From a virus, in IMG/VR virus record IMGVR_UViG_3300031654_000269, positions 1 through 64,000 of that record: DNA of 64,000 bases; one strand, written 5' to 3'. The position numbers and the translations under genes are program-made. Each line of letters opens with the position of its first letter. Within the stretch, counting starts at the first letter, position 1. Positions 5,770 through 58,109 of the stretch are shown in pieces. The notes beneath the pieces were generated by a model. It saw only the letters and a program-made list of their open reading frames with translations, was not told where the DNA came from and ran no database searches.

Positions 5770-6654
5770 TTATTTTATTAGTTGCATTAATTCTTCTTTA
5801 GCGGTTGGATCAGTCATAAAAGCTCCTTTGATACTTGATGTAACCATAATGGAATGTTGTTTATTGACTCCTCTCATTCGCATACAAAGATGAGAAGCTT
5901 CAATTATACAAGCTGCTCCCAGTGGTTGGAGTTCTTTCATCAGGGTTGTAGTGACCTGTTCCCCTATACGTTCTTGTATCTGCAAACGCCTGGCAAATAT
6001 ATCAACCAACCGTGCTAGCTTGGAAATTCCAATTACTTTTTTATCCGGAATATAAGCGACATGGGCTTTACCGAAGAATGGGAGCATATGGTGTTCACAC
6101 ATTGAAAAGAATTCAAAGTTCTTTAGTAAAACAATTTGATCATACCCATTGTAATCTGTAAAGGTGGTTAGAATATCTTTTGGATTTTTATTGTATCCAG
6201 AGTAAATCTCATCCCATGATCGTACTATTCGAGCAGGAGTTTCTTTTAATCCTTCCCGGTTCGGGTCTTCACCAATATATTGAAGTTGTCGGATAATATT
6301 TTCCTCAATAGTCTCCTCTTGTTCTCCCGGATGATCTACTTCCCAAGGAAATACTACCCAGTAATTACTGTATTTGAGGTAGTCTTCTTTACTTCCAACT
6401 TTGTTGATTAGAGCATGAAATGGTGTACCTGGGTACTTTTCCACATAAAGTTTCATAGTCTTTCCGGAATCAATTATATCATCTAAAAAGATAGTAGCTT
6501 CGGATGGAATATGAGTAACTACTGCGTGATCTAAGAAAGCAGTAAGAATCATCCCACCTTTTGGGATACCATAAACGGTATTTTCCGGCGTGTCAATATT
6601 ATCAAGCATACGGAATACCTCTTCCCAAGTGATGTATATTTTATTATCTTTCAT
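5770..6654 (-). CDS. folE: Phosphoribosyltransferase-like domain fused to GTP cyclohydrolase I
   Basis: Residues 1-105 look like a type I phosphoribosyltransferase, with the PRPP-binding motif [10 protein letters not shown] at 57-66 and the later VVFPWE typical of purine-type members. Residues 115-294 are FolE, which turns GTP into dihydroneopterin triphosphate, the first step of 7-deazaguanine synthesis. Zinc ligands Cys186, His189 and Cys257 are present. The ATG at 6654 overlaps the end of queC by 11 bp; an upstream in-frame ATG at 6726 would lie deep inside queC and is less likely. The fused PRTase is unusual and its substrate is unknown. Confidence 0.92.
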
Positions 6655-7330
6655 ATTCAATTGGATCCTCCTTTCCGAGTAATTTGAATGCTTCAAGACG
6701 TTCTTGACAGGCTCCACATTTGCCACAAGATATAGATTGATTCTTATAGCACGTACGAGTATATTGATAAGGTACTTGTGGAGTAAGATTATAGCCGATT
6801 TTAAGAATATCCGCTTTATTCATATCAAGAAATGGAGCATATACAGAAACCTTTTCTTCTGTGGCAAAATTAATTGTTATATTCAACGAATGGATAAAAT
6901 CTTTTCGACAATCCGGATAGATATGATGATCACCAGCATGAACTCCTAAAGCAATTGTATCGGCTCCTATTGATTGAGCAAGACCCGTCATTATGGATGC
7001 AAATATTAAATTACGACCTGGTACAACTGTTTGTTTCATTGATTCAGCTTCGTAGTGACCTTCAGGAATTGCTCCTCCTGATTGTAAAAGGTCTGAATCA
7101 AAAGATTTGAAAGTATTAACCAGGTTAAAGATATGTGCATCTATTTTATCCCTGAATCCATTTATCAGATAGAAATGAAATACATGAGAGAAAGTATGGA
7201 ATTCATAAGCATTATGCTTAGAACCATATTGGAAGTTACAACAATGAACTTCGACTCCCTTACTGAGCAGAAAGCCCAGTAAGGTTGCCGAATCCATTCC
7301 ACCGGATAGAGCAAGAACTACTTTCTTCAT
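6644..7330 (-). CDS. queC: 7-cyano-7-deazaguanine synthase QueC
   Basis: A 228-residue PP-loop ATPase that converts 7-carboxy-7-deazaguanine to preQ0 with ammonia and ATP. The PP-loop SGGMDS lies at residues 9-14, and the zinc site is formed by Cys194, 202, 205 and 208 (CGKCGAC). Length and motifs are standard. It precedes the folE fusion and follows a low-complexity acidic protein gene. The last codons, EYER-stop, contain the ATG of folE, so the two are likely coupled. Confidence 0.95.
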
Positions 7331-7338
7331 TTAAGTCC

Positions 7339-8229
7339 TTATTTTCTTCCTTTTTTAAAAGTCATAACTCCTTCAGCATCCTGAACAACCAGGTGAGGGA
7401 ATTTATTATACTTTGGGTTCTTAGCATCGCTAAGTAAAGTAGCAATTCCGGATTTCCCATCAGGTTCTTTTTTCAGGGCTTTTTCAATGAGCTCACTTTT
7501 GGTATATTTACCTGATTCGATTAATGGAGTCAAAAATTCAATGCGGTCTGCTGTGAGTGAACCTCTTTTTTTACTCGAAGTTTTCTTCTCGGATGATCTT
7601 CTCTTCGGTTTTTCTTCCTCTTCAGGTTCTTCATCCTTCACTTTGGCTTTACTTTTCTTCGGAGCAGGTTCATCTTCTTCTTCAAGTAAATCAAGCATGT
7701 CAGCCCGCAGGTCTTTCACACCATTCAAACCTTTGTAATCATCCAGGTCAGGAAGGAGTGATTTGAATTCCTTGTTATCCTCAGCGATGTCCTTCAGCTG
7801 ATCCAGCTTTTTAGCTGCTTTGATTTGATCAACTAAATCATCATCCTCAACAACTTCTTCTGGTTCTTCTTCCTCAGGTTCCGGTTCAGGTTTCCTTTTG
7901 CTACGAGCAGGTCGTTCTTCAGATTTTTTAGCTGGTGGTTCATCTTCACCAACGGTGATGTCAAGAACATCCTTCAGTACTTTTACAGCCTTTTTTGAAA
8001 ATAAATCTGGCTCATCTTCTGCCAGTTCTTCAATAACACCACGGGCTTTGTCTGTGATATTTTTATCATCATCTTCTTCAAGACTTAAACATTCACAGGC
8101 TTCAATAATCTTTTCTTTGATCTCTTCACCATCGGCTTTAAGATCGATTGCTTGAGGATCATCACTCCCATCTTCAAACAGGAGGTCATTCAAATCCTTT
8201 GCACATTTTACTAATTCTGAATTTTTCAT
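7339..8229 (-). CDS. Acidic/basic low-complexity protein, unknown
   Basis: A 296-residue protein built from runs of Glu/Asp and Lys/Arg (for example EPEPEEEEPEEVVEDDD and KRRSSEKKTSSKKRG), with short helical segments between. The last 75 residues look more ordered (SLTADRIEFLTPLIESGKYT). No known domain is recognised. It interrupts the deazaguanine genes, lying between queE and queC. Its leader, at 8227-8254, resembles that of the gene at 51354. A DNA- or nucleoprotein-binding role is a guess from charge only. Confidence 0.75.
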   Translation of the reverse strand: MKNSELVKCAKDLNDLLFEDGSDDPQAIDLKADGEEIKEKIIEACECLSLEEDDDKNITDKARGVIEELAEDEPDLFSKKAVKVLKDVLDITVGEDEPPAKKSEERPARSKRKPEPEPEEEEPEEVVEDDDLVDQIKAAKKLDQLKDIAEDNKEFKSLLPDLDDYKGLNGVKDLRADMLDLLEEEDEPAPKKSKAKVKDEEPEEEEKPKRRSSEKKTSSKKRGSLTADRIEFLTPLIESGKYTKSELIEKALKKEPDGKSGIATLLSDAKNPKYNKFPHLVVQDAEGVMTFKKGRK

Positions 8230-8281
8230 GATTAGAAATTTAATTGTTAAAAATAAAAGTTAGTTATGTTTATTCAAATTA

Positions 8282-9043
8282 TTATACTCCCACTGCATTA
8301 TCCCAAAGGATAATATGTTCGCGGGAGCAATATCGTACATTTTCTCGTATAGCTATTTCTACTACTTCTGTTTGGTTTATCATTAATTCCTTCCGGGTAG
8401 CTCCTTGTGGCATCAGGATAACTTGCTCCCGTTTGATAAGACCTTCATCCAAGTAATCACTTTTAATTTCTGACCAATCCTTATCATTTGTAATGACAAA
8501 TTTAAACCAGGAATCTTCTAAGTCAGATAGAAATTTAAGTACTTCAGGTCGATATCTTTTACTCCAAGGATTTCCAGAATTACAGAGTTTAGGAGAATTA
8601 TTCCAAGTACCTACAAAATCAATTAATCCTCGGTGTGGTTTTATTGTACATTCGTTTTCAATCTCTACGAATGGAAGGAGGTTGTATTTTACAGTGAATG
8701 CTACAAGGAAATTTAATAAAGCTTCTTGTTGTTTCAATGGACTTCCACCTGTAATAACCAGATGATGTCCTTTTCGTAGCTTTTCAATTATACCAAACTT
8801 TTCCATCAATCCAAATATCTCCTCGAATGAATATGGATTCCCACGATTCCAATGGGTGTCACAATACGAACAATTAAGTGTACAACCTTGGAGTCTTAAA
8901 AAGGTAGCAGGACAGCCAGTATGAATTCCTTCACCTTGAATAGTATCAGTAAAGAGTTCTGATATATTTAGGTATTTTTCTTTTGGAATCTCCTTTCTTG
9001 GAAAAATTGCTGGGGGTAAGGGGATTATTTGTTTACTCTTCAT
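8282..9043 (-). CDS. queE: 7-carboxy-7-deazaguanine synthase QueE (radical SAM)
   Basis: A 253-residue radical SAM enzyme that contracts 6-carboxy-tetrahydropterin to 7-carboxy-7-deazaguanine. The Fe-S ligands Cys54, 58 and 61 form CTLNCSYC, preceded by the QueE-typical TDTIQGEG. A glycine motif for SAM (VITGGSPL) follows. The start overlaps queD by 11 bp, so both are translated together. The protein is slightly longer than many QueE because of an N-terminal extension of about 25 residues. Confidence 0.94.
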   Translation of the reverse strand: MKSKQIIPLPPAIFPRKEIPKEKYLNISELFTDTIQGEGIHTGCPATFLRLQGCTLNCSYCDTHWNRGNPYSFEEIFGLMEKFGIIEKLRKGHHLVITGGSPLKQQEALLNFLVAFTVKYNLLPFVEIENECTIKPHRGLIDFVGTWNNSPKLCNSGNPWSKRYRPEVLKFLSDLEDSWFKFVITNDKDWSEIKSDYLDEGLIKREQVILMPQGATRKELMINQTEVVEIAIRENVRYCSREHIILWDNAVGV

Positions 9044-9395
9044 ACCGTGCGGATGTTTTAGCGGTTTCTTTTACGGTCACGGCTGACAGTTGAGGGTATA
9101 TCTTTTCAAATACCCTGTAGATATATCCAGCAATATGCTCAGCTGTTGGATTTAATCTATCAAATGGATAATTGTCATTCAAACACTTATGATCAAACAT
9201 CTCATCAATGAAATCCTTCACCCGTTTCAAATCATTATAATCTACAACAAATCCCTTTATATCCAATTCCTTAGATTTGAGTTCAATGATTACCGTATAG
9301 GTATGCCCATGTAGTTGTGAGCATTTATGTCCAGGTGGTAATCCAAGCAGTTTATGAGCTGCATCAAAAGTAAATTCTTTAGTGATTGTGTACAT
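9033..9395 (-). CDS. queD: 6-carboxy-tetrahydropterin synthase QueD
   Basis: A 120-residue member of the PTPS family, acting on dihydroneopterin triphosphate from FolE. Zinc ligands are His14 in FDAAHKL and His29/His31 in LHGHTY. Cys25 is the likely catalytic residue, with the FDHKCLND and KETAKTSARYEE motifs following. It is the first gene of the deazaguanine group, after a 92 bp AT-rich gap that could hold a promoter. Confidence 0.95.
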   Translation of the reverse strand: MYTITKEFTFDAAHKLLGLPPGHKCSQLHGHTYTVIIELKSKELDIKGFVVDYNDLKRVKDFIDEMFDHKCLNDNYPFDRLNPTAEHIAGYIYRVFEKIYPQLSAVTVKETAKTSARYEE

Positions 9396-16944: not shown

Positions 16945-17331
16945 CTAACGGTGTTTTGTCCGCTTGATTTTTGCATGACGTGTACGAACAATCTTTGTAC
17001 TAGGTTTCTGTGGTTCATTGAGCTGATCTCTCAGCTCTTTAAATCGTTCAATGTACTTTATCCGATGACGATTTAATACTGCATAGAAATCTCGGTTGTC
17101 TTTTGATTTAGCAAGAAATGGACGTTCAATGATTAAGGTACTGGAATCAAATAATTGATGAACGGTTTCCTGTCTCAAACAAAATTCACGTCCATCCTCT
17201 CTCACTTCATAAAACATTACTTTACTTCCTACTAAACGGGCTTCCAAAATAACATCACGGAAATTAGCGATGTATTTGTATTGCCAGTTGGGGATTGCTT
17301 TTGCAAGGACATTTTTGTGTATTGATTTCAT
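16945..17331 (-). CDS. Unknown small protein, cassette-array member
   Basis: A 128-residue basic protein ending in a Lys/Arg-rich tail (KIVRTRHAKIKRTKHR), with no recognised domain. It is the last gene of the hairpin-spaced array and is preceded by the recurrent element at 17332-17384. The basic tail suggests nucleic acid contact, which is inference. Confidence 0.6.
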   Translation of the reverse strand: MKSIHKNVLAKAIPNWQYKYIANFRDVILEARLVGSKVMFYEVREDGREFCLRQETVHQLFDSSTLIIERPFLAKSKDNRDFYAVLNRHRIKYIERFKELRDQLNEPQKPSTKIVRTRHAKIKRTKHR

Positions 17332-17384
17332 AATTACAACGTTTTTTATTGGTTAAGAGCAGGAATAAATCCTGCTTTCGGTCA
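17332..17384 (-). promoter_or_regulatory. Recurrent intergenic hairpin element, copy 1
   Basis: On the minus strand it reads TGACCGAA, then a hairpin with a 7 bp perfect stem (17358-17364/17370-17376), then TTAACCAATA6CGTTGTAATT ending at the ATG of the next gene. Flanks match the other copies while the stem is specific to this copy. Confidence 0.8.
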
Positions 17385-17385
17385 T

Positions 17386-17793
17386 TTAACTCATATAATT
17401 TGGACCTCCTGATTTACCACATTTTGAGCAATGGTAATAAATACAAGGTCCATTTTCAGCGTCTCCAGTATCTTCAATTTCAAAATCATGTTTGCAGTAA
17501 TGTTGATTTATTTTAATTGTAATCCAAGATAACGTAGAGATTTTTGGTAATTTAGTGTATTCTCCGGTTGATTCATCATAATCAATTGAGAAAGCATTTC
17601 TGTGTTTCCAAGATTCAAATAAATCAAAACAATTTACAATCCATTGTGGGAGTAACCAATACTTCTTTCTGCTAAAAATAATGTATTGAGGATATTTCTT
17701 ATCCTTCTTCCATTTAAAAAGTAGACCACTGTTAGGATTTACTCTTGATCCGGAAGTTTCTAGACTAAAAAGTCGATTCTTAAATATTAACAT
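17386..17793 (-). CDS. Unknown protein with C-terminal zinc-binding motif
   Basis: A 135-residue protein starting MLIFKNRLFS. The last 35 residues hold CKHD and CSKCGKSGG, likely a zinc knuckle. The ATG at 17793 directly follows a truncated copy of the recurrent element, which decides the start over a longer frame opening at 17886. Function unknown. Confidence 0.65.
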   Translation of the reverse strand: MLIFKNRLFSLETSGSRVNPNSGLLFKWKKDKKYPQYIIFSRKKYWLLPQWIVNCFDLFESWKHRNAFSIDYDESTGEYTKLPKISTLSWITIKINQHYCKHDFEIEDTGDAENGPCIYYHCSKCGKSGGPNYMS

Positions 17794-17814
17794 AATTACA
17801 ACGTTTTTGGTTAA
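17794..17814 (-). promoter_or_regulatory. Truncated recurrent element, copy 2
   Basis: On the minus strand the 3' constant part is kept (TTAACCAAAAACGTTGTAATT) but lacks three bases found elsewhere. The CCGAAA-hairpin half is missing and is replaced by the RNA-rich region at 17880-18090. Confidence 0.6.
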
Positions 17815-17883
17815 ACATATAAATAAATGCGTGAGCCTGTTTCCAGTCCTCTTACGTCTCTCCGGCTCAAGACAGATACCCAA

Positions 17884-17911
17884 CAATTGAACTATCTAGC
17901 TCATTCAATTG
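17884..17911 (-). ncRNA. Perfect 8 bp hairpin next to the tRNA-like domain
   Basis: CAATTGAA at 17884-17891 and TTCAATTG at 17904-17911 are perfect complements with a 12-base loop. It lies 18 bp downstream (minus strand) of the tRNA-like domain. There is no T tract, so it is not a classical terminator. It may be part of a longer processed RNA. Confidence 0.45.
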
Positions 17912-17929
17912 ATACAGGCGTGACCTTTG

Positions 17930-17994
17930 TGGAGCCAACGGATGGATTCGAACCATCCTCCCTTATTAGTTCGGGAGTGCCATTTTTCGCTGGC
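17930..17994 (-). ncRNA. tRNA-like domain with encoded CCA, no D arm
   Basis: On the minus strand a 7 bp acceptor stem (GCCAGCG with CGTTGGC, one G-T pair) ends in T-CCA. A canonical T arm GATGG-TTCGAAT-CCATC precedes it. A 5 bp CTCCC/GGGAG stem with a 10-base loop abuts the T arm with no variable loop, and the 5' side has 10 unpaired bases instead of a D arm. The 65-base total is too short for a normal tRNA. The layout resembles the tRNA-like domain of tmRNA. It could also be a decayed or armless tRNA. Confidence 0.6.
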
Positions 17995-18007
17995 ATATTT
18001 TTTTAAA

Positions 18008-18085
18008 GAGTCCTCAATCTATCTAACCTAAGAGTTAACCCTACACGAAAGAAACGAAACCTCCCCTCTTAGAGATTGAGGACTC
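18008..18085 (-). ncRNA. Long imperfect hairpin (13 + 7 bp)
   Basis: A perfect 13 bp inverted repeat at 18008-18020/18073-18085 continues, after a 7-base bulge, into a second 7 bp stem at 18028-18034/18066-18072. The 31-base loop is purine/pyrimidine biased (GAAAGAAACGAAAC on the plus strand). No open frame explains it. It lies just upstream of the tRNA-like domain on the minus strand, so both may belong to one transcript. Confidence 0.6.
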
Positions 18086-18091
18086 ACATTT

Positions 18092-18123
18092 GTCATAGGA
18101 TAACGTTGTAATCAACCTATGAC
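18092..18123 (-). ncRNA. Hairpin over the stop codon of the preceding gene
   Basis: GTCATAGG at 18092-18099 pairs perfectly with CCTATGAC at 18116-18123. The stem includes the TAG stop of the 70-residue gene. Its loop holds an AACGTT core like that of the recurrent elements. Role may be 3'-end formation or RNA processing. Confidence 0.45.
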
Positions 18124-18329
18124 GGAGTTGTTTCTTTATGATGATGCTTCGTTCTTTTCATTTTAATTATCGCACCATAGCTTGGATTTCTACGGACATT
18201 CTTCATATAGCATGGGTAGCATTGATCTGCATCCGGATTCTTGTCAACCAAATTCTGCTTCAGTGGTTTACCACATGTTTTGCAGTGTTTGTTGCTTAAA
18301 ATTTTGTAATCGTGTTTTTTGTTTTTCAT
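18117..18329 (-). CDS. Small zinc-ribbon protein
   Basis: A 70-residue basic protein with CKTCGK and CYPCY pairs about 20 residues apart, a probable zinc ribbon, followed by a basic tail (KMKRTKHHHKE). Its ATG overlaps the stop of the upstream Ala-rich gene. It has no recurrent element of its own and appears to share that gene's leader. Confidence 0.65.
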   Translation of the reverse strand: MKNKKHDYKILSNKHCKTCGKPLKQNLVDKNPDADQCYPCYMKNVRRNPSYGAIIKMKRTKHHHKETTPS

Positions 18330-18853
18330 TTTAATAAAGTTAATCCGTATTTTAATATTTTGATTTGAATCTTTTCTTTATCAGCATCAGCAGCATAAGC
18401 AGCAGCAGCATAAGCAGCAGCAGCATAAGCAGCAGCATAAGCATAAGCAGCATCAGCAGCATAAGCAGCATAAGCAGCATAAGCAGCAGCAGCATCAGCA
18501 GCATAAGCAGCAGCAGCATAAGCAGCAGCAGCATTTTTATTCTTAGTTGATTGTCTATTTAAGTATCTTTCAGCTGCTTCAATAGCTTTCTCTGGTCGAT
18601 CATCATCAGGATACTTTTTTTGATAAATAGGTAAAACCAATTTTGCAGCAAATACGGCATATTGTACTCTCTGTTTTTTGTTCATTAATTTTACAATCAA
18701 CCAATTTGCCCAATCCAAACGGAATCTATTATTAATAGAATAATTGAGTAATTTAATTGGATTCTCTATTGGATGAGATTTGAACCATTCAATGCCTTCG
18801 ATACAGGCACCATAGTTACTTAATAAATTAAGAGTGATTTTTTTTGTCTTCAT
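18326..18853 (-). CDS. Protein with immunity-like N-terminus and Ala/Tyr repeat tract
   Basis: A 175-residue protein. Residues 1-95 contain WLIVKLMNKKQRVQYAVFAA and YPDDDRPEKAIEAAERYL, a pattern I associate with uncharacterised proteins often labelled putative immunity protein. Residues about 105-155 are a tract of Ala with regular Tyr and Asp (AAAAYAA units), followed by KIQIKILKYGLTLLK. The ATG at 18853 follows a complete recurrent element; an in-frame ATG at 18904 lies in that element and is rejected. Function is not established. Confidence 0.7.
   Translation of the reverse strand: MKTKKITLNLLSNYGACIEGIEWFKSHPIENPIKLLNYSINNRFRLDWANWLIVKLMNKKQRVQYAVFAAKLVLPIYQKKYPDDDRPEKAIEAAERYLNRQSTKNKNAAAAYAAAAYAADAAAAYAAYAAYAADAAYAYAAAYAAAAYAAAAYAADADKEKIQIKILKYGLTLLK
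18382..18533 (-). repeat. Triplet repeat tract coding the Ala/Tyr region
   Basis: About 150 bp of near-perfect GCT/GCA-type triplets with interspersed TAT and GAT codons (GCAGCAGCATAAG units on the plus strand). Such tracts tend to change length by slippage in whole codons, so repeat number may vary between isolates without breaking the frame. Confidence 0.8.
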
Positions 18854-18903
18854 AACAACGTTTTTATTGGTTAATAGCCTGAAATTAATCAGGCTTTCGG
18901 TCA
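18854..18903 (-). promoter_or_regulatory. Recurrent intergenic hairpin element, copy 3
   Basis: Complete copy. The stem is 7 bp (18876-18882/18889-18895) with a 6-base loop. The constant TGACCGAAA on the 5' side provides the stop codon of the upstream gene, and the TTAACCAATAAAAACGTTGT flank ends at the ATG of the downstream gene. Confidence 0.85.
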
Positions 18904-19098
18904 TTTCATTGATTCAGGATTTCCATATCCCCAAATTATTTTACCGGTGAGTTTAATAAACTCCCGTTCAACTTTATCAATCTCATCAGCAGTGACTCTA
19001 CTGTATCCTTTTGCTCTCATTTCATTTCTGAGATTAGTGTGTTGCTTGATAAGATTAACAATTTTCTTGTGTTTTTCTACAAATTCTTCATTATTCAT
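18901..19098 (-). CDS. Unknown small protein, cassette-array member
   Basis: A 65-residue charged, probably helical protein (KKIVNLIKQHTNLRNEMR). No domain recognised. It begins directly after a complete recurrent element and ends with a TGA that belongs to the next element. Confidence 0.6.
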   Translation of the reverse strand: MNNEEFVEKHKKIVNLIKQHTNLRNEMRAKGYSRVTADEIDKVEREFIKLTGKIIWGYGNPESMK

Positions 19099-19149
19099 AA
19101 CAACGTTTTTATTGGTTAATAGTCCCTTATAAAAAGGGACTTTCGGTCA
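19099..19149 (-). promoter_or_regulatory. Recurrent intergenic hairpin element, copy 4
   Basis: Complete copy with an 8 bp stem (19121-19128/19134-19141) of sequence AGTCCCTT/AAGGGACT, different from the other copies, between unchanged flanks. Its TGA is the stop codon of the upstream gene. Confidence 0.85.
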
Positions 19150-19374
19150 TTTTAAATAAATAAAATCATATGCATGTTTATTAAGTACAATCTTAGCATT
19201 ATGAATATTTGATAATGCAATAAATTTAGTAATAGCACTTTCTGAATCAAATCCAGATTCTAATACATTTTCATCCTGAGAGATTGAAAAAGTACAATCT
19301 GTCATTTTATCAAGATAATAGGTAAGTCCACCTTTCTCGAAAGTAAAAATAGTAATTTCAGTTTCGTTTTCCAT
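19147..19374 (-). CDS. Unknown small protein, cassette-array member
   Basis: A 75-residue acidic protein starting MENETEITIFTFEKGG. No domain recognised. The start at 19374 follows the recurrent element; longer in-frame readings begin inside that element. The stop is the TGA of the next element. Confidence 0.6.
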   Translation of the reverse strand: MENETEITIFTFEKGGLTYYLDKMTDCTFSISQDENVLESGFDSESAITKFIALSNIHNAKIVLNKHAYDFIYLK

Positions 19375-19431
19375 AATTACAACGTTTTTATTGGTTAAAA
19401 TCCTAACCATTAAAGATTAGGATTTCGGTCG
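19375..19431 (-). promoter_or_regulatory. Recurrent intergenic hairpin element, copy 5
   Basis: Complete copy with an 8 bp stem, AATCCTAA/TTAGGATT (19399-19406/19417-19424), and a 10-base loop. The 5' flank reads CGACCGAAA instead of TGACCGAAA, so here the upstream gene supplies its own stop. Confidence 0.8.
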
Positions 19432-19432
19432 T

Positions 19433-19678
19433 TTAATACTCATGCTGAGGATACCTCGTATAAGATAATCCATTTTTTTCCATTGTGAATTGACGATATC
19501 CTACTGTAAACCGTTTAAAGTATTCCGTTTTACATTTAGGATCAACATCAATTTGCCTAGCCCAAACAGATTCCCCATCCTTTAAAACATTCATAAAACC
19601 TTTTATGGTTTTAATGATTTGTCCTTTCAGACTTTTACGTCCTTCACATACATCAACAATTTCATATTCTGTTCTCAT
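19433..19678 (-). CDS. Unknown small protein, cassette-array member
   Basis: An 81-residue protein starting MRTEYEIVDVCEGRKSLKG. No domain recognised. The start at 19678 directly follows a recurrent element. The frame extends further upstream to 19726 only by reading through that element's hairpin. Confidence 0.6.
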   Translation of the reverse strand: MRTEYEIVDVCEGRKSLKGQIIKTIKGFMNVLKDGESVWARQIDVDPKCKTEYFKRFTVGYRQFTMEKNGLSYTRYPQHEY

Positions 19679-19737
19679 AATACAACGTTTTTTATTGGTT
19701 AATACAGTGAGCTTAAAAATACTCACTGTTTCGGTCA
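19679..19737 (-). promoter_or_regulatory. Recurrent intergenic hairpin element, copy 6
   Basis: Complete copy with an 8 bp stem ACAGTGAG/CTCACTGT (19704-19711/19722-19729) and a 10-base loop. Its TGA ends the upstream gene. Confidence 0.8.
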
Positions 19738-19944
19738 GTTTAAATTTGTTCTAATCGTTCCTGTATATCCAAGTCCATGAAAGAACCGGACAAATGAAGA
19801 GATGTCTTTTGCAATAATCATCTCACGGGAGACTTTCTTGCTACGAGAGTTACTCGTTACTACATCAACGAACCATTTGTCAGGATCGGATGTTTCAAAT
19901 TCTATTGTAGAATTTTTTCTGTGGAGGCTGCCGGGGAATTTCAT
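19735..19944 (-). CDS. Unknown small protein
   Basis: A 69-residue basic protein (MKFPGSLHRKNSTIEFETSD). Its ATG overlaps the stop of the preceding gene, so the two form a two-gene cassette behind one element. It ends in the TGA of the next element. No domain recognised. Confidence 0.6.
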   Translation of the reverse strand: MKFPGSLHRKNSTIEFETSDPDKWFVDVVTSNSRSKKVSREMIIAKDISSFVRFFHGLGYTGTIRTNLN

Positions 19945-20315
19945 TTTTTTAAATCTTTACGAGAATCCTCCCATTGGATTATCCATTGTTTATCTTTAAA
20001 AATCCAATAACAATCAGCTATCCTTGTTCCATTAGAACCATCTGTAATATAATGAAAGGTAAAATTTAATGGAAGCCAGTATTCTTCCATACTTTGAGAT
20101 AAACCTCCTCCAAAATTGGTTATTTTGAAAGAAGAATAAAAGTTTTGGAGTACTCCTGTCTGAGCTTTTAGTTCTTGGGAAGATAATTCAATGTATTGTC
20201 TTCCATCTCTGTATTGAGATACGTTTGTAGTTAATATCAAATCAATTCCAAATTTCTTAGAAATGATTTTCGTTAAACTAGTAAAGTCAAAATCAATCAA
20301 TTCCAAATTTTTCAT
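19941..20315 (-). CDS. Unknown protein, cassette-array member
   Basis: A 124-residue protein with alternating beta-prone segments (LSSQELKAQTGVLQNFYSSF) and several Trp near the C-terminus. No domain recognised. It follows a complete recurrent element at 20316-20369 and is coupled to the 69-residue gene after it. Confidence 0.65.
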   Translation of the reverse strand: MKNLELIDFDFTSLTKIISKKFGIDLILTTNVSQYRDGRQYIELSSQELKAQTGVLQNFYSSFKITNFGGGLSQSMEEYWLPLNFTFHYITDGSNGTRIADCYWIFKDKQWIIQWEDSRKDLKK

Positions 20316-20369
20316 AACAACGTTTTTATTGGTTAATAGGCCAAGTAATAATACTTAGCCTTTCGGTCA
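20316..20369 (-). promoter_or_regulatory. Recurrent intergenic hairpin element, copy 7
   Basis: Complete copy. The stem AGGCCAAGTA/TACTTAGCCT has 9 pairs and one internal C-A mismatch, with a 4-base loop. Flanks are as in other copies. Confidence 0.8.
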
Positions 20370-20371
20370 AA

Positions 20372-20671
20372 TTACCATCTTCTTGTTTCGGTAACCTTAA
20401 CATCCTTTACTCTGAATTCTTCAGGAATGGATACTTTCCATCCTCCATCATCCTCCCAAGTTACATCATAACCCAAGGCTTCAAGTAATTTTGGTACAGG
20501 GTTATCTTTTTCTACACCACTTCCATAAATTACTACTTGATTTTCTGCTGGATTAAAGAATTCATACAGTTTGTGCATATCACAATTCCTAATTATATGA
20601 GCCGGTTTATAAAAATTATTACCTGCTTGATAAATAGGAAATTTTTTTGATTTCTCAAATGAATTTTTCAT
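20372..20671 (-). CDS. Unknown small protein, cassette-array member
   Basis: A 99-residue protein starting MKNSFEKSKKFPIYQAGNNF, with a hydrophilic, mixed alpha/beta composition and a C-terminal VKVTETRRW. No domain recognised. The start at 20671 follows the recurrent element; the frame can be read through that element from 20728, which I regard as accidental. Confidence 0.6.
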   Translation of the reverse strand: MKNSFEKSKKFPIYQAGNNFYKPAHIIRNCDMHKLYEFFNPAENQVVIYGSGVEKDNPVPKLLEALGYDVTWEDDGGWKVSIPEEFRVKDVKVTETRRW

Positions 20672-20727
20672 AATTACAACGTTTTTATTGGTTAATAGCA
20701 GGATAATAAAAATCCTGCTTTCGGTCA
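20672..20727 (-). promoter_or_regulatory. Recurrent intergenic hairpin element, copy 8
   Basis: Complete copy with an 8 bp stem AGCAGGAT/ATCCTGCT (20697-20704/20712-20719) and a 7-base loop. The stem resembles that of copy 1, unlike the other copies. Confidence 0.85.
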
Positions 20728-20730
20728 CAT

Positions 20731-20952
20731 CTATAACAAATTTAATAGGTCTTTATTATTCCTTTGACCCGTTGCAGTTCCCATATGTAGAGTTTTTGCG
20801 TGATTTTGTAACTTCTCAAAGCATTCTATTGTATCGGGTGTTTGAATTTCAGTCTGTTTTCCACCTATAAAATAAACAAATTCAAAAAATTCTCCGTCAA
20901 CACTAATAGCTTTTATAGAAGTTTTTCCGGACATAGCTTCAAATTTTTTCAT
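20731..20952 (-). CDS. Unknown small protein, cassette-array member
   Basis: A 73-residue protein starting MKKFEAMSGKTSIKAISVDG. No domain recognised. It is the first cassette (5'-most) of the uninterrupted series and follows a degenerate element adjoining the RNA-rich region. Confidence 0.6.
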   Translation of the reverse strand: MKKFEAMSGKTSIKAISVDGEFFEFVYFIGGKQTEIQTPDTIECFEKLQNHAKTLHMGTATGQRNNKDLLNLL

Positions 20953-21008
20953 AATTACAACGTTTTTTATTGGTTAAGACCCAGCCAACTCGTGACCGGG
21001 TTTCAATC
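20953..21008 (-). promoter_or_regulatory. Recurrent element, degenerate copy 9
   Basis: The 3' constant part (TTAACCAATA6CGTTGTAATT) is intact, but the hairpin is only a 4 bp ACCC/GGGT stem with a long loop and the outer flank reads GATTGAAA instead of TGACCGAAA. It marks the 5' end of the array. Confidence 0.6.
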
Positions 21009-21017
21009 TTTATAATG

Positions 21018-21091
21018 TGCTTACAGCTTAGACCATTCTAAATAAATAGAATCTGGACGAATCCAGTCATCAGTTAACCTCACTGTAAGCA
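21018..21091 (-). ncRNA. Three-way-junction RNA candidate
   Basis: A 9 bp perfect closing stem TGCTTACAG/CTGTAAGCA (21018-21026/21083-21091) encloses two adjacent hairpins: ATTCTA/TAGAAT (21035-21040/21047-21052) and CTGGA/TCCAG (21053-21057/21062-21066). On the minus strand the second has a TTCG tetraloop. No coding frame explains the region. It looks like a compact, structured RNA; the family is unknown. Confidence 0.55.
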
Positions 21092-21126
21092 AAAAACGTT
21101 TGAAAAAGAATCTTGGGAGAAGTAAT

Positions 21127-21219: not shown

Positions 21220-21306
21220 TTATTGGTGTCCTTTTTTCGAGCTTCTCTCTTTCAGAATGTCAATGAACGTGTAGGTAGGAAAATGTTTCGTCTTTTACTG
21301 CCAATT

Positions 21307-21372
21307 CCCCGGCTCATTTACGAGTCCGGGGCACACCTGCCGATTACTTACGACAGGATTGGCGGCAGGGTG
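21307..21372 (-). ncRNA. Two GC-rich hairpins after the first early gene
   Basis: CCCCGGCTC/GAG-t-CCGGGG forms a 9-pair hairpin with one bulge at 21307-21331. CAC-a-CCTGCCG/CGGCAGGGTG forms a 10-pair stem at 21332-21342/21363-21372, starting right after the stop of the 82-residue gene. GCCAAT near 21360 can also pair with ATTGGC (minus strand) beyond the other hairpin, so alternative folds exist. No T tract follows, so simple termination is unlikely. Confidence 0.55.
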
Positions 21373-36575: not shown

Positions 36576-37256
36576 ATGCCGTGGCAGGTTCCAAATATAT
36601 GGGAAGAGGGTGAGTGTTATATCATTGGTGGAGGTTTGTCGATGCCTCACCAATTTGGTGTACCAAAAGAGGTAGTTAAGTTAGTATTAGAGAAGGAAGC
36701 TACACCAGATATATACTCACCCTATCTTTCAGAATTACATGATAAACATATAATTGGAGTTAACGCTGCATTCTATATCGGTAATTGGATTGAGGTTTGC
36801 TTTTTTGGTGATGCCGGATTCTTTTTACATAATCGTAAAGAGCTAGCGGATCATCCTGCTCTGAAGATTTCTACCAATGCAGCCGTCCGGGGATATCGAT
36901 GGGTCAAGTATCTGAAACAAAGCCGTGAAAAGTCATTTGGGATAACTCGGAAAAGAACGGAACTTGTGTGGGGAGTAAATAGTGGAGCAGCAGCAATAAA
37001 TCTTGCCGTACATTTTGGAGTGAAGCGAATAATCTTATTAGGATTTGATTTAAAAATGGAAGGCATTAACTCTCATTGGCATAGTGTATATAAATCACGT
37101 GATGTTAAAAGTCAGGAGCATTCGTTTCATCGTCATCTACGATCATTTCCAGCAATAGCCAAAGATGCTAAGAGAATGGGGGTGGAGATTATTAATGCAA
37201 ATCCGGATAGTGCTTTAACAGAGTTCAAACGAGTATCATTGAAAGAAATATTATGA
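36576..37256 (+). CDS. DUF115/MptE-like (glycosyltransferase-type) protein
   Basis: A 226-residue protein with CYIIGGGLSM at the N-terminus and GVNSGAAAINLAVHFGVKRIILLGFDLK near residues 135-165. This pattern occurs in DUF115/MptE-like and distant sialyltransferase-like proteins that use a nucleotide-linked donor. It is the first gene of the carbohydrate cassette. The exact reaction is unknown. It overlaps the next gene by ATGA. Confidence 0.65.
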   Translation: MPWQVPNIWEEGECYIIGGGLSMPHQFGVPKEVVKLVLEKEATPDIYSPYLSELHDKHIIGVNAAFYIGNWIEVCFFGDAGFFLHNRKELADHPALKISTNAAVRGYRWVKYLKQSREKSFGITRKRTELVWGVNSGAAAINLAVHFGVKRIILLGFDLKMEGINSHWHSVYKSRDVKSQEHSFHRHLRSFPAIAKDAKRMGVEIINANPDSALTEFKRVSLKEIL

Positions 37257-37861
37257 TATCTGTAGCAATCATAGGGCATGGATCAAGTATTGAAGGGAGA
37301 GGATACGGAAAATTTATTGACTCCAATGATATTGTAATTCGTATGGCTGAATGTGATTGGCAAAATCATACCGATTATGGTATTAAATATGATATTGGAG
37401 TATTTGCGGAGGGACCATCCAAAAGTTGGGCTGAAAATTCTCAACGGATTCCCAAATTGGAATACTGGTATTACAGGATGGATAAAAATATTCGAAATGA
37501 AGAGGATGTGATGAGTAAATTTAAAGATCGTCAGACGCGAGAGTTGCGAAATTCCGTATGGCAATATGTTAAACATCTCAAACCTGGTTTTCATTTTTCT
37601 CGTGGTACCGCCGCTGTAATTTCAGCTGCTAAATTATATCACCCAGTAGAAATATCATTGTTTGGATTTGATTCCGTAATAAATGGAACAAATGAAAAAA
37701 CCGGTTCAAAACATCATCCTGATTTACTTACACAATATCTACCTAGTGATTATCACTTACCTAGAAATGGAAATACTCATGACTGGGAATCAGAAAAAAA
37801 TTTAATGCAGACTCTTAGTTCTACTAAAGCAGTAGCAATATTAACAAATATAATACAATGA
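37253..37861 (+). CDS. GT29-like (sialyltransferase-like) glycosyltransferase
   Basis: A 202-residue protein with VAIIGHGSSIEGRGYGKFID, then DIVIRMAECDW, equivalent to the sialyl motif L region. SRGTAAVISAAKLYHP and LFGFDS match the motif S side, and the late HDW..E is typical. It would transfer a nonulosonic-type sugar from a CMP donor if the family prediction holds. The acceptor is unknown. It overlaps both neighbours. Confidence 0.68.
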   Translation: MISVAIIGHGSSIEGRGYGKFIDSNDIVIRMAECDWQNHTDYGIKYDIGVFAEGPSKSWAENSQRIPKLEYWYYRMDKNIRNEEDVMSKFKDRQTRELRNSVWQYVKHLKPGFHFSRGTAAVISAAKLYHPVEISLFGFDSVINGTNEKTGSKHHPDLLTQYLPSDYHLPRNGNTHDWESEKNLMQTLSSTKAVAILTNIIQ

Positions 37862-38400
37862 GAAAAACTATATCGGAAGAATATCAAGCCTTAAATGTTG
37901 AACATCATAACTCAAGGGTGTGGGGAGTTGCCGGAGGTAAATGGGTTAATTTAATTTCAGAAATACTCAAGCAAAATGATGCTAGAACTGTATTGGATTA
38001 TGGAGCAGGAAGAGGAGTGTTGTCAGAAGGTTTGAGAGGAAAAGGATATTTGGTGACTGAATACGATCCGGGAGTAATAGGAAAGGCATTAAAACCAGTT
38101 GATGGAATCGTATTTGATTATATAGTTTCCACTGATGTCTTTGAGCATATTGAACGGGAATTTGTTGAAAATGCCTTAGATGAGATTCGGGATTATATGA
38201 AGGTAGGAGGAGTCTTTGTAATTTGTTTAGGTATAGCTAAAAAGCACTGGTTGAAAGATGGGAGGAATGCTCATGTATTAGTGCGCCCACGGGAATGGTG
38301 GAGGAAACAATTATTAAAGAGGTTCCCAGTAGTGAAAGAATTACCAGGTAGAAATTGGAAGTCTCGTGAAATGGTTGTGCATGTTAAAAAATTGAAATAA
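37858..38400 (+). CDS. Class I SAM-dependent methyltransferase
   Basis: A 180-residue protein with the SAM motif LDYGAGRGVLSEGL at about 46-59, an acidic EYDPG end of strand beta-2, and FDYIVSTDVFEHIE for motif II/III. This is the small-molecule or sugar-methyltransferase type. Placed between glycosyltransferase and sulfotransferase genes, a glycan substrate is likely but unproven. Confidence 0.8.
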   Translation: MRKTISEEYQALNVEHHNSRVWGVAGGKWVNLISEILKQNDARTVLDYGAGRGVLSEGLRGKGYLVTEYDPGVIGKALKPVDGIVFDYIVSTDVFEHIEREFVENALDEIRDYMKVGGVFVICLGIAKKHWLKDGRNAHVLVRPREWWRKQLLKRFPVVKELPGRNWKSREMVVHVKKLK

Positions 38401-39044
38401 TGAAAATATTTTTTATTGCTGGAATACCAAGATCAGGAACATCATTTGTTGCTGGGTTATTACATAAGCACGGAGTGTGGGTGGGGGAAACAATCCCTGC
38501 AGACAAGCATAATAAGACGGGATATTTTGAGAATATTCAGATCGTGGATATAGTAAAAACCTTGATGAAAGAAAACGGTATGAGAGCACGTTCGGATGAA
38601 TTCGTTTCCAACTCATTACATACAGAACCAACTTTACGTGAGATGGTTTTAAATATTGTAGGGGATCAGGACGTATGGCTATACAAAGATTCTAAACTAT
38701 TATTTTTGTATCCATTGTTTGCCTTAGCTTTCCCGGAGGCAACATGGATTATACCTATCAGAAAGTCAGAGAGGATTCAGGAAAGTTTATATCGACATTC
38801 TACTTGGAGAAATCGTGTTAAAAGTATTCAAGATCCAAATAATTACTTTTTAGGTATGATTAATCGGTTAAAAGTTAGACAAGATGAAATAATATTTAAT
38901 CCAGATATAAAGGATCATATTGTTTATACCGATTTCATTATTGATTCTATTGATAACGCTAAAGTATTTATTGAGGATTGTGGATTAATTTTTAATCCTG
39001 AAGTATATCAAGAATTTGTACGACCAGAATTGTGGCATGGATAA
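38400..39044 (+). CDS. Sulfotransferase-like P-loop protein
   Basis: A 214-residue protein with the 5'-phosphosulfate loop PRSGTS at 10-15 and the 3'-phosphate region IPIRKSERIQESLYRHS near 120-136. The substrate is probably a sugar, with PAPS supplied by the host. It starts right at the stop of the methyltransferase gene. A second, diverged copy lies at 40133. Confidence 0.72.
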   Translation: MKIFFIAGIPRSGTSFVAGLLHKHGVWVGETIPADKHNKTGYFENIQIVDIVKTLMKENGMRARSDEFVSNSLHTEPTLREMVLNIVGDQDVWLYKDSKLLFLYPLFALAFPEATWIIPIRKSERIQESLYRHSTWRNRVKSIQDPNNYFLGMINRLKVRQDEIIFNPDIKDHIVYTDFIIDSIDNAKVFIEDCGLIFNPEVYQEFVRPELWHG

Positions 39045-39798
39045 AAAAGAAGACATATCAATTGCATGTTGTTTGTGGGGGGATTGGCCTAAACATGCTG
39101 AAGCTGGAATGAGCGGAGTAGAGTATGTTAATCGATTATATCGAGCAGTAGAGAGGAATACTACTTTACCACACCAATTCTTCTGCTTTACAGATTCCAA
39201 GCAATTAGATCAATTTGATGATGGGATTATACTAAATACAATTGAACTCCCATCTAGGATGCGTGAAATTGCTAAACTCTATGTATATAAACCTGGTATT
39301 GGATTGACAGGGAGAATTATTGTGATGGATTTGGATACTATAATATTAAAAAACATTGATGAATTTCTAGTCAGGAAAGAGGAATTTATTGTTAGAAAAG
39401 CATTTAATCCTCGATTCATAAAAGCGTTTGATGGTATCGGAGGGGATTTGATTAGTTTTGATGAAGGGTTTGGAGAATTCATATGGGATACTTTAAAGAA
39501 TCAGACAAGTTGGATGAATCAAATGACCGGAGGTGATGAGAGAAAAGCATATAAATTATTATTGAAAGACAGGGGACACAAGATTACATTTTGGCAGGAT
39601 ATCCTTCCAGGTAGGTATATTTCTTTTAAGAATCATCTTAAACCAATTTATCGTAGTACTTATTTCAATGAGAATTGTAAAAGAAGGGAAATTAAAAAAG
39701 CTTTGAAGAATGTTTCATTGATATCTTTTCATGGTCAGCCGAGACCCCATGAATTATTAGTTAAATCTGTTGATTGTGTAAAAGAAAATTGGAAATGA
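39037..39798 (+). CDS. GT8-like glycosyltransferase
   Basis: A 253-residue protein starting MDKKEDISIACCLWGDWPKH, with a DxD metal site in RIIVMDLDTIIL (Asp98, Asp100), IGGDLISFDEG for a donor loop, and a late ISFHGQPRPHE whose His resembles the third metal ligand. This is the common layout of glycogenin-type GT8 enzymes found in phages and capsule clusters. The ATG at 39037 overlaps the upstream stop by 8 bp; the frame also extends to 39016. Confidence 0.72.
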   Translation: MDKKEDISIACCLWGDWPKHAEAGMSGVEYVNRLYRAVERNTTLPHQFFCFTDSKQLDQFDDGIILNTIELPSRMREIAKLYVYKPGIGLTGRIIVMDLDTIILKNIDEFLVRKEEFIVRKAFNPRFIKAFDGIGGDLISFDEGFGEFIWDTLKNQTSWMNQMTGGDERKAYKLLLKDRGHKITFWQDILPGRYISFKNHLKPIYRSTYFNENCKRREIKKALKNVSLISFHGQPRPHELLVKSVDCVKENWK

Positions 39799-40136
39799 AT
39801 AGAGAAATTAAGATTTGGGGAGAACGTTGGTTGATCCGTCAGGATTCAACACATGTAGTATCTTTCTTAAAAGTGAAGGAAGGATTTCGATGTAGTTGGC
39901 ACTCTCATAAAGAAAAATATAATCTGTTTGTAGTATTGGAAGGTGCTTTAAAGATCGTAGTTGAAGAGATGGGAGAAAAAAGGGAAACAATATTACAATC
40001 TGGAGAATGTTTAACTATCAAGCCTGGTCAGTGGCATGAATTTCAAGGAATAAAATATTCAGAAGTGATTGAAGAAATGTATGTTGAATATAAAGAATCT
40101 GATATTAAACGTCAAAATGAAGGAGGTAAAGTATGA
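39795..40136 (+). CDS. Cupin-fold protein
   Basis: A 113-residue single cupin. CSWHSHKEKYNLFVVLEG gives the first metal motif and GECLTIKPGQWHEFQG the second (His, His, Glu, His). Its relatives include sugar-nucleotide isomerases and epimerases, and sensory cupins. In this cassette it may modify a sugar nucleotide. It overlaps both neighbours by ATGA. Confidence 0.75.
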   Translation: MNREIKIWGERWLIRQDSTHVVSFLKVKEGFRCSWHSHKEKYNLFVVLEGALKIVVEEMGEKRETILQSGECLTIKPGQWHEFQGIKYSEVIEEMYVEYKESDIKRQNEGGKV

Positions 40137-40840
40137 GACCACCTATTTTAATAACAGGTGCGGCACGTAGTGGTACAAGTATGGTGGCAGGTGTGATCAA
40201 TATCTGTGGAGCATTTGGAGGTAATATGTCCCCACCGAATAAAAACAATCAGAAAGGAATGTTCGAAAATATTCATATTCGGAATAGTCTAGTCAAACCT
40301 TATTTACGAGAGATCGGAGTGGATCCAATGGGACAATATCCATTACCTAATATAAAGAAATTAGAAATTCCTACATGGTGGAAAAAGCGAGTTGAAACTA
40401 TTATGATTTCTGAAGGGTATACTGATGGTCAATGGATGTATAAGGGAGCTAAGAGTTGTTTGATTTGGCCAATATGGAATTATGCTTTTCCAAATGCTAA
40501 ATGGATTATTGTTCGCAGACGAACGGGTGATATAGTAAACTCCTGTCTTAAAACAGCATTCATGCGAGCTTTTCATTCCCCTGATGTTCAGGACTCTGTA
40601 AAAGTTTATACTGAAACGGAAGGCTGGATATGGTGGGTACGGCAGCACGAGAAACGTTTTGTGGAAATGATTCAGGAAGGATTGAATTGTAAAATAGTTT
40701 GGCCTGAGAGATTGATACACGGAGATTATAATCAATTGTTTGAAACGCTTGAGTGGGTTGGATTAGATTATAAATCACATACTGAGGAAATTTACCAGTT
40801 CATTGAACCGAAATTATGGAAAGCAAGAAAAAGTATATAA
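40133..40840 (+). CDS. Second sulfotransferase-like P-loop protein
   Basis: A 235-residue protein with the loop ARSGTS at 11-16 and a 3'-phosphate-type segment KWIIVRRRTGDIVNSCL. It shares the NNQKGMFENIHI stretch with the gene at 38400 (NKTGYFENIQI), so both come from one family. AAGGAGG precedes the ATG by 6 bp. Presence of two such enzymes suggests two acceptor positions or two acceptors. Confidence 0.7.
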   Translation: MRPPILITGAARSGTSMVAGVINICGAFGGNMSPPNKNNQKGMFENIHIRNSLVKPYLREIGVDPMGQYPLPNIKKLEIPTWWKKRVETIMISEGYTDGQWMYKGAKSCLIWPIWNYAFPNAKWIIVRRRTGDIVNSCLKTAFMRAFHSPDVQDSVKVYTETEGWIWWVRQHEKRFVEMIQEGLNCKIVWPERLIHGDYNQLFETLEWVGLDYKSHTEEIYQFIEPKLWKARKSI

Positions 40841-57109: not shown

Positions 57110-57310
57110 TTATTTGTTTTTAATTTCTCTGTTATAAAACCATTCCGGTATTTCTAATACTCCTGTTTCTGAATCGAAAGAATGAATTGAGTTTGGAATC
57201 CATATCTTATCTCCTTCACAATCGTATTGAGTCGCTCCACGGGAGGTTTCAAATATAAACTCTGCTTTTATCTTGTAGTTGGTTTTATCCCCTTTTTCAA
57301 ATGCATGCAT
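57110..57310 (-). CDS. Unknown small protein
   Basis: A 66-residue soluble protein (MHAFEKGDKTNYKIKAEFIF) with mixed charge and beta-prone segments. No domain recognised. It overlaps the KdsA gene by 14 bp. Confidence 0.55.
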   Translation of the reverse strand: MHAFEKGDKTNYKIKAEFIFETSRGATQYDCEGDKIWIPNSIHSFDSETGVLEIPEWFYNREIKNK

Positions 57311-58109
57311 TTTGTACCTTTATTAAATCAGTTAGTAATTGTTTAACCATACTAAGAGGATACATTGCTTTTCCATCCGACTTTGCAGTGAGTCGATCTG
57401 GATGGGTTTCCATGAATATCCCATCTGCTCCCATAGCAATTGCAGCCTTTGCAAATCGTTCAATTAATTGTGGGTCTGTTTCTTCATCATACGCTGATTT
57501 CATAGGATGTGTAATATCTACGATGACAGGTCTTTCAAAAACTTTACCAAAATAAATGTTTTTAAAGTCAGCAATTATATCCTGATAACCAAAAAAGCTT
57601 CCTCTTTCAGTCCATAGGATTTTATTTTTAGCTCCGAAATGATTAGCTTTTTCGAGGACATGATAAAAATCGTGTAATGACATCCACTGGGCTTTTTTAA
57701 TATTAATCCATTTTCCTGACTTAGCAGCCTGTTCTATTATATCAGTCTGACGACATAGTAAAGCTGGGATTTGGATTACATCAACACAATCTATAATAGC
57801 AGATTCAAGACGTCCACTATGAATATCGGTTGTTATCGGAATATGTAATATATCCTTGATCTCCCTGAAAATACGAAGACAGTTATATACCCCAATCGAT
57901 TGAAAAGAATCATACCGAGTTCGATTCATCTTTGCGTAAGATGCTTTGAATATAAAAGGTATTTGTAATTCATCGGTAATATTTTTCAATTCCTGAGCGA
58001 TCTGAAAAGTAGTATTTCGATCTTCAATAGCACAAGGACCAGCAATAAGTAGAAATTTTTTTGAGTCCGTATGTCGAATATTTGGTATTGTGTTAATGTT
58101 GTTTTTCAT
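57297..58109 (-). CDS. kdsA: 3-deoxy-D-manno-octulosonate 8-phosphate synthase (KdsA)
   Basis: A 270-residue TIM-barrel enzyme that joins PEP and arabinose-5-phosphate into KDO-8-phosphate for LPS core or capsule sugars. AGPCAIE, FKASYAKMNRTR, TDIHSG, VIQIPALLCRQTD, WTERGSFFGY and FMETHPDRLTAKSDG match the family in order. DAHP synthases share the fold, but the LCRQTD and ETHP blocks favour KdsA. It sits among recombination genes, overlapping the RuvC-like gene by ATGA, so it is a phage gene. Confidence 0.9.
   Translation of the reverse strand: MKNNINTIPNIRHTDSKKFLLIAGPCAIEDRNTTFQIAQELKNITDELQIPFIFKASYAKMNRTRYDSFQSIGVYNCLRIFREIKDILHIPITTDIHSGRLESAIIDCVDVIQIPALLCRQTDIIEQAAKSGKWINIKKAQWMSLHDFYHVLEKANHFGAKNKILWTERGSFFGYQDIIADFKNIYFGKVFERPVIVDITHPMKSAYDEETDPQLIERFAKAAIAMGADGIFMETHPDRLTAKSDGKAMYPLSMVKQLLTDLIKVQNACI

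Follow-up and report, generated by a model that had tools for sequence, protein, structure and literature searches.

Why does one constant junction with a changing hairpin stand in front of so many small genes in a viral genome? The question is raised by the minus strand of a 64,000-nucleotide stretch (hereafter the window; positions 1–64,000 of the 66.4-kb IMG/VR record IMGVR_UViG_3300031654_000269), where a preliminary description had reported nine such elements at gene starts. We found all nine at the positions claimed: eight with a hairpin (E1–E8; seven canonical, and E1 with GATT for GACC) and a ninth that consists of the leader only (E9). Hammerhead ribozymes are self-cutting RNAs, and the array almost certainly descends from them. 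We assign a probability of roughly 0.6 to a reading of the array as a split type I hammerhead, in which one RNA at its upstream end, here called the head, would be the shared catalytic partner of the elements. Whether the head actively cleaves them in trans is, judged from this one genome, an even bet.

Each of E1–E8 is composed, in order, of the 3' strand of stem II, GAAA, stem III, a cleavage base and TTAACC, the 3' strand of stem I (Table 1). The string GACCGAAA occurs seven times on the minus strand of the window and never on the plus strand, and the exact 20-base leader TTAACCAATAAAAACGTTGT is present in five copies (0.01 expected from shuffled sequences). Across the eight hairpin elements, 98.4% of the stem cells were paired, 7/8 stem pairs had changes on both sides, and the covariation score was 1.018 versus 0.22 after shuffling; the flanks of E2–E8 were 100% identical, whereas the 5' arm of stem III was 41% identical. 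These values bear out the earlier proposal that compensatory changes in the stems between near-invariant flanks reflect selection on the fold, and the junction is indeed standard (E5 reads CGACC in place of TGACC). Other parts of the preliminary description had to be amended. Its seven canonical copies and one truncated copy (E9) stood, but the copy called degenerate, E1, is an intact 3' half with GATT instead of GACC; a TGA that doubles as the stop codon of the upstream gene was found in three copies (E4, E6 and E7; open reading frames starting with ATG), not four; and the interval 17332–21008 holds the elements, but the feature reaches upstream to about 21105, where the partner strand lies.

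The elements have the features of hammerhead substrate halves. GAAA, a stem III closed by the A15.1-U16.1 pair, H17 and the 3' strand of stem I were present in all eight of E1–E8, and the cleavage base was never G. GACC is the stem II strand in 7/7 of E2–E8 and has no local partner there: a catalytic strand (CUGANGA) was absent next to E2–E8, even with one mismatch allowed, and none of the seven is a cis-acting hammerhead by itself. The coding sequence directly upstream of E8 (17418–17384) bears a weak likeness to a 5' half (28.9 bits), with a dead core that has lost C3 and G5. A common partner strand would explain the invariance of GACC and the retention of GAAA, the A-U pair and the non-G base: the elements have no cis ribozyme beside them, and a plain leader could do without these features. 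What had been overlooked is that the constant flanks are the stem I and stem II strands and the GAAA core of a hammerhead, and that their partner sits a short way upstream of the interval described.

The complete form of the element occurs in other phages. When 2.9 million viral contigs were scanned with the pattern ACCGAAA-(10-38)-TTAACCAATAA, 63 stretches were returned, mostly chance-like; in six the hairpin was paired, and an ATG followed at a short distance in most of these. The sequence upstream in the six was GGTTAACTGAYGAGGTC-loop-GACCGAAA or nearly so, which makes each a complete type I hammerhead in the order GGTTAA (stem I), CTGAYGA, short stem II, GAAA, variable hairpin (stem III), cleavage base H17 and TTAACC (stem I). 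A second scan with GGTTAACTGAYGA-(6-36)-CGAAA returned at least 120 stretches. In 100 fetched loci we counted at least 152 complete elements, one to seven per whole record, and the median distance from the cleavage site to the first ATG was 22 nt (interquartile range, 20–24 nt). In an alignment of 65 complete copies the core did not vary, 98% of the stem cells were paired, and stems II and III covaried strongly, in agreement with the hammerhead motif. Stem I is invariant in this alignment because the scan required it; variation in stem I comes from relatives found through the terminase, described below. At Rfam gathering thresholds nothing was reported in the window or in six relatives; under lax settings one relative aligned to the RAGATH-1-hammerhead and HH9 models, with scores short of gathering.

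A search for half elements showed how far the window stands apart. Only 4 of 141 comparable elements in the other fetched loci were without CTGANGA within 45 nt upstream, as against 8/8 in the window; one of the four has the core variant CCGATGA, three are chance-like, and no convincing split was among them. In nine of ten multi-copy cis loci the 3' strand of stem II differs between copies; only in L150 is it the same, in all four copies.

Several of these loci deserve mention in their own right. The subfamily GGTTAA-CTGAYGA...TTAACCAA (L063, L027, L069, L075 and relatives) is missed at the gathering thresholds of Rfam release 15 and would merit a family model of its own. Bacterial genomes scanned for the cis form yielded three matches. 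Eight complete hammerheads lie within 5.8 kb in L300 (JAAGZR010000219.1, titled Aliivibrio sp. MAG), with a mixture of GGTTAA and of GATTAA with TTAATC in stem I; this is possibly a phage contig binned into the wrong genome. L142 (IMGVR_UViG_3300049491_000350) has seven hammerheads, several without a near ATG and followed instead by a recurring sequence like AAAAGTCAGNNGCAGACTATAACAGGC; their context differs from that of the gene-start copies.

The position of the array in the genome agrees with this descent. A helicase protein search of viral contigs found no relative, and alignment of the terminase gave 80 relatives (about 50–58% identity), a route that also led to loci with helicases about 50% identical. 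In six of these relatives, cis hammerheads lie about 1–4 kb from the terminase gene and on the other strand, between the terminase and the next conserved gene, which is the same place as that of the array. In L220 and L268 the gene order is that of the window: terminase, hammerheads and a homologue of the gene at 16945–17331, the only array gene with homologues in the fetched loci. Given this shared synteny on the terminase side, the array occupies the site of the self-cutting hammerheads of its relatives. Stem I covaries in these relatives (GACATA/TATGTC, GACTAA/TTAGTC and GACAAA/TTTGTC). L268 also contains, at 6927–6961 (minus strand), a broken hammerhead of the opposite type, in which the CTGATGA and GAAA strands are kept and the half with the cleavage site is missing.

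If E2–E8 are substrate halves, where is the other half? The head lies at the start of the array, in the non-coding stretch ahead of E1. Here GGTTAACTGATGA (21079–21067), followed 32 nt later by GGTC, is the only site in the 64 kb that reads like the missing half even with one core mismatch allowed, and 0.00 occurrences of this 13-mer are expected; in the remaining 2.4 kb of the record no GGTTAA adjoins a CTGANGA core. The head is built from a leader-binding arm, the 5' strand of a helix termed P0, TGA, the stem I strand, the core, two hairpins, the stem II strand, TAA and the 3' strand of P0. Immediately ahead of the 13-mer, AACGTTTTTT is an exact 10-nt complement of AAAAAACGTT in the leaders; a complement of this length occurs in about 0.16% of 40-base windows of the minus strand, that of the head included. 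By covariance model, head and E1 together score as one hammerhead (40 bits, E of about 4e-6), but with a GGTC:GATT stem II that contains two G.U pairs and a 32-nt insertion between core and stem II.

Table 1. Coordinates of the array elements, the head RNA and other features of the window
Feature	Position	Strand	Remarks
E1	20953-21008	-	substrate half, stem II strand GATT; predicted cleavage after C20978
E2	20672-20726	-	substrate half; predicted cleavage after A20696
E3	20316-20368	-	substrate half; predicted cleavage immediately before T20336
E4	19679-19736	-	substrate half; predicted cleavage immediately before T19702
E5	19375-19430	-	substrate half; predicted cleavage immediately before T19398
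E6	19099-19148	-	substrate half; predicted cleavage immediately before T19119
E7	18854-18902	-	substrate half; predicted cleavage immediately before T18874
E8	17332-17383	-	substrate half; predicted cleavage immediately before T17356
E9	17794-17814	-	leader only, TTAACCAAAAACGTTGTAATT; begins where a cleaved leader would begin
Head RNA	21018-21105	-	sole candidate catalytic strand, putative clamp helix and two inserted hairpins; fold z-score -2.8
Leader-binding arm AACGTTTTTT	21091-21100	-	complementary to AAAAAACGTT of leaders
P0 5' strand GCTTACAG	21083-21090	-	pairs with CTGTAAGC at 21026-21019
Stem I 5' strand GGTTAA	21074-21079	-	
Catalytic core strand CTGATGA	21067-21073	-	perfect core
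Two inserted hairpins, CTGGA-TTCG-TCCAG and ATTCTA-TTTATT-TAGAAT	21035-21066	-	no linkers
Stem II 5' strand GGTC	21031-21034	-	complementary to GACC of E2-E8
P0 3' strand CTGTAAGC	21019-21026	-	
Hairpin GTCATAGG-TTGATTACAACGTTAT-CCTATGAC	18092-18123	-	loop holds ATTACAACGTT, exact antisense to AACGTTGTAAT of leaders; 0.03 expected in window
Strongly folded non-coding region	17820-18135	-	z = -4.3; upstream of E9
Structured non-coding stretch ahead of head	21290-21372	-	hairpins CCTGTCG...CGGCAGG and CCCCGG...CCGGGG, closed by GCCAAT/ATTGGC
Small array protein with long Ala/Tyr/Asp repeat	18326-18853	-	Pfam Imm5_like 2e-7; phrog_38757 (unknown function) 7e-31

The head and the elements are complementary at three places. 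GGTTAA of the head matches TTAACC in 8/8 elements; GGTC matches GACC by Watson-Crick pairs in 7/8, and E1 through the two G.U pairs; and AACGTTTTTT pairs with the leader over 9–10 bp in 8/8. The head thus carries, as a strand apart, what a trans-acting hammerhead is made of: a CTGATGA core between GGTTAA and GGTC, which match the strands that the substrates contribute to stems I and II. When the head was cofolded with E2–E8 without constraints, the leader helix, GGUC:GACC and stem III all formed. The pairing of GGTC with GATT of E1 was calculated at about +0.1 kcal/mol, versus -3.8 kcal/mol with GACC.

Since E2–E8 have no catalytic half of their own, any cutting of them must come from the head RNA, either in trans or by long-range pairing inside one transcript, while head and E1 may form one hammerhead in cis. 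The predicted complex would be held by 6 bp of stem I, 4 bp of stem II and the 9–10-bp extension of AACGTTTTTT with the leader. P0 could act as a clamp that joins, through short linkers, stems I and II at their distal ends, where natural hammerheads have their tertiary contact, and the two inserted hairpins, if stacked on each other, could let core and stem II stack across the continuous GACC-GAAA strand. Cutting would convert a polycistronic RNA into mRNAs that begin with a 5'-OH UUAACC 21–25 nt ahead of each ATG, and would leave a hairpin on the 3' end of every upstream piece. Weak binding of GATT might free the head for E2–E8, the other substrates displacing E1 once E1 has been cut. RNA processing between cistrons, one of the three roles considered in the preliminary description, would agree with such a scheme, in which an array of self-cutting ribozymes would have evolved into a system of one enzyme and many substrates.

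Several points weigh against a shared catalytic strand. The 32 nt of the two hairpins separate CTGATGA from GGTC, and no known hammerhead has an insertion of more than one or two nucleotides at this place (Eckert et al. 2023, PMC10085705). The nested cofolding energy of the head with the substrates (RNAcofold) was good, yet 14 of 300 random windows were equally strong, which keeps this energy from being decisive alone; moreover, stems I and II would form a pseudoknot with P0, and cofolding covered nested structures only. The split arrangement was seen in one genome only, and two scans for similar heads found none: the scan for other heads with the ACGTTTTT arm was empty, and that with the core and first hairpin gave 23 matches, mostly one recurring sequence and none in a hammerhead context. 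Finally, the product would stay bound by 15–16 bp, and its release may be slow.

The alternative that survives best, which we consider unlikely, is that the head is a non-catalytic antisense regulator of the translation or stability of the small genes, derived from a hammerhead whose core was spoiled by the inserted hairpins. It would account for an insertion beside the core that has no precedent (PMC10085705); the 9–10-bp extension covers the A-rich stretch right before the ATG, and the second hairpin at 18123–18092 is likewise antisense to the leader. However, the core of the head is perfect, and none of the eight substrates has lost the requirements of cleavage (GAAA, the A-U pair, H17 and a paired stem III), which would be superfluous in a mere antisense target.

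Slightly less probable still is that head and E1 alone act, in cis, and that E2–E8 are leftover halves, kept because the hairpin shields the RNA 3' end of the gene upstream and the leader aids translation, or because they are bound by a protein. The single-hammerhead score of head plus E1 fits this explanation, natural hammerheads act in cis as a rule (PMC6155905), E8 may retain a decayed 5' half, and the stem II strand is likewise constant across the four copies of the cis phage L150. Leftover halves would not be expected to hold a partnerless GACC identical in seven copies, together with the A-U pair and H17, while the stem arms drifted to 41% identity, and it is E1, the copy with a cis partner, that deviates from GACC. 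We regard as very improbable a catalytic strand for E2–E8 supplied by RNA from outside the record (the host, another replicon or a missing part of the genome): the 66.4-kb record may be incomplete at its ends and the insertion in the head is odd, but the head already matches all the constant flanks, and the other 2.4 kb offer no second candidate.

The two further roles raised in the preliminary description, a terminator or promoter for a phage polymerase and a DNA recombination junction, would suit standard junctions between small unrelated genes but are the least probable of all: none of the E1–E8 hairpins was listed as terminator-like (a GC-rich hairpin followed by a U run), promoter-like sites were no commoner than in shuffles, nothing indicates recombination, the traits seen are those of a motif for RNA cleavage, and the element in the relatives is part of a ribozyme. 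An integron attC-like site was rejected, the flanks TGACCGAAA and TTAACCAAT not being mutually complementary. A lax Rfam search of the array and head gave chance-level matches only, BLASTN of the same region against phages gave no match, and the pattern ACCAATAAAAACGTTGT had seven unrelated matches in viral contigs.

Hammerhead clusters among phage genes are already known, and a role in cutting transcripts has been suggested for them before. In prophages such clusters flank single small genes in operons, where they were proposed to divide a long transcript into mRNAs one gene in length; stems I and II are commonly linked by pseudoknots, and one cluster was active in vivo (Perreault et al. 2011, PMC3088659). 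Each hammerhead there is complete and self-cutting, whereas E2–E8 are without a catalytic strand and would share one. The mammalian Clec2 mRNA hammerhead is discontinuous, its halves being widely separated within a single transcript (Martick et al. 2008, described in PMC6155905); by that account it has one catalytic half, one site and a very long helix I and acts in cis, whereas the window has one catalytic half and eight substrate halves. In non-circularly permuted hammerheads the core comprises three blocks (CUGAnGA, GAAA and the cleavage site) joined by pseudoknots (Eckert et al. 2023, PMC10085705), and the window resembles this scheme with the first block apart from the other two; in those hammerheads, however, all blocks lie in one RNA, with at most one or two bases inserted beside CUGAnGA, compared with 32 in the head. 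Engineered trans-cleaving hammerheads have separate enzyme and substrate strands as here but are man-made, and most natural hammerheads self-cleave rather than act in trans, according to PMC6412130. No split, bipartite or naturally trans-acting hammerhead came up in a search of the openly licensed literature, and absence from that part of the literature is not proof.

The chances are about equal for and against the array being a natural trans-acting hammerhead, in which one clamped phage RNA with a new junction beside its core would cut at least seven mRNA junctions that lack catalytic halves of their own. To our knowledge, RNA otherwise cuts many substrates in trans only in RNase P and in engineered constructs. 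If the reading holds, an enzyme strand common to many substrates would illustrate the passage from self-cleaving RNA to true enzyme; such a two-RNA system is directly testable. The wider family of complete elements, with its leader of about 22 nt to the ATG, makes the purpose of phage hammerheads concrete, namely cutting polycistronic mRNA just ahead of start codons.

The window has other features of note (Table 1). The hairpin at 18123–18092 may belong to another trans RNA, with these leaders as its target. Within the strongly folded region, a tRNA-like piece without a D arm (GCCAGCG...GGATGGTTCGAATCCATCCGTTGGCTCCA, about 17995–17930, minus strand) was reported by neither ARAGORN nor Rfam. 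Ahead of the head, the stretch at 21372–21290 resembles a three-way junction. Little came from family searches with the array proteins; the expectation that these genes serve host takeover or anti-defence was not substantiated, as a single product, that of 18326–18853, exceeded the Pfam cut-off, and it is an Imm5-like protein of the immunity type. Elsewhere in the window, the regions 5770–9395 (minus strand), 36576–40840 (plus strand) and 57297–58109 (minus strand) contain QueC and FolE-, QueE- and QueD-like genes, sulfotransferase- and glycosyltransferase-like genes among virion genes, and a KdsA-like gene. The FolE-, QueE- and QueD-like calls are judgements from sequence, and together with QueC these genes suggest that the DNA may carry a 7-deazaguanine modification.

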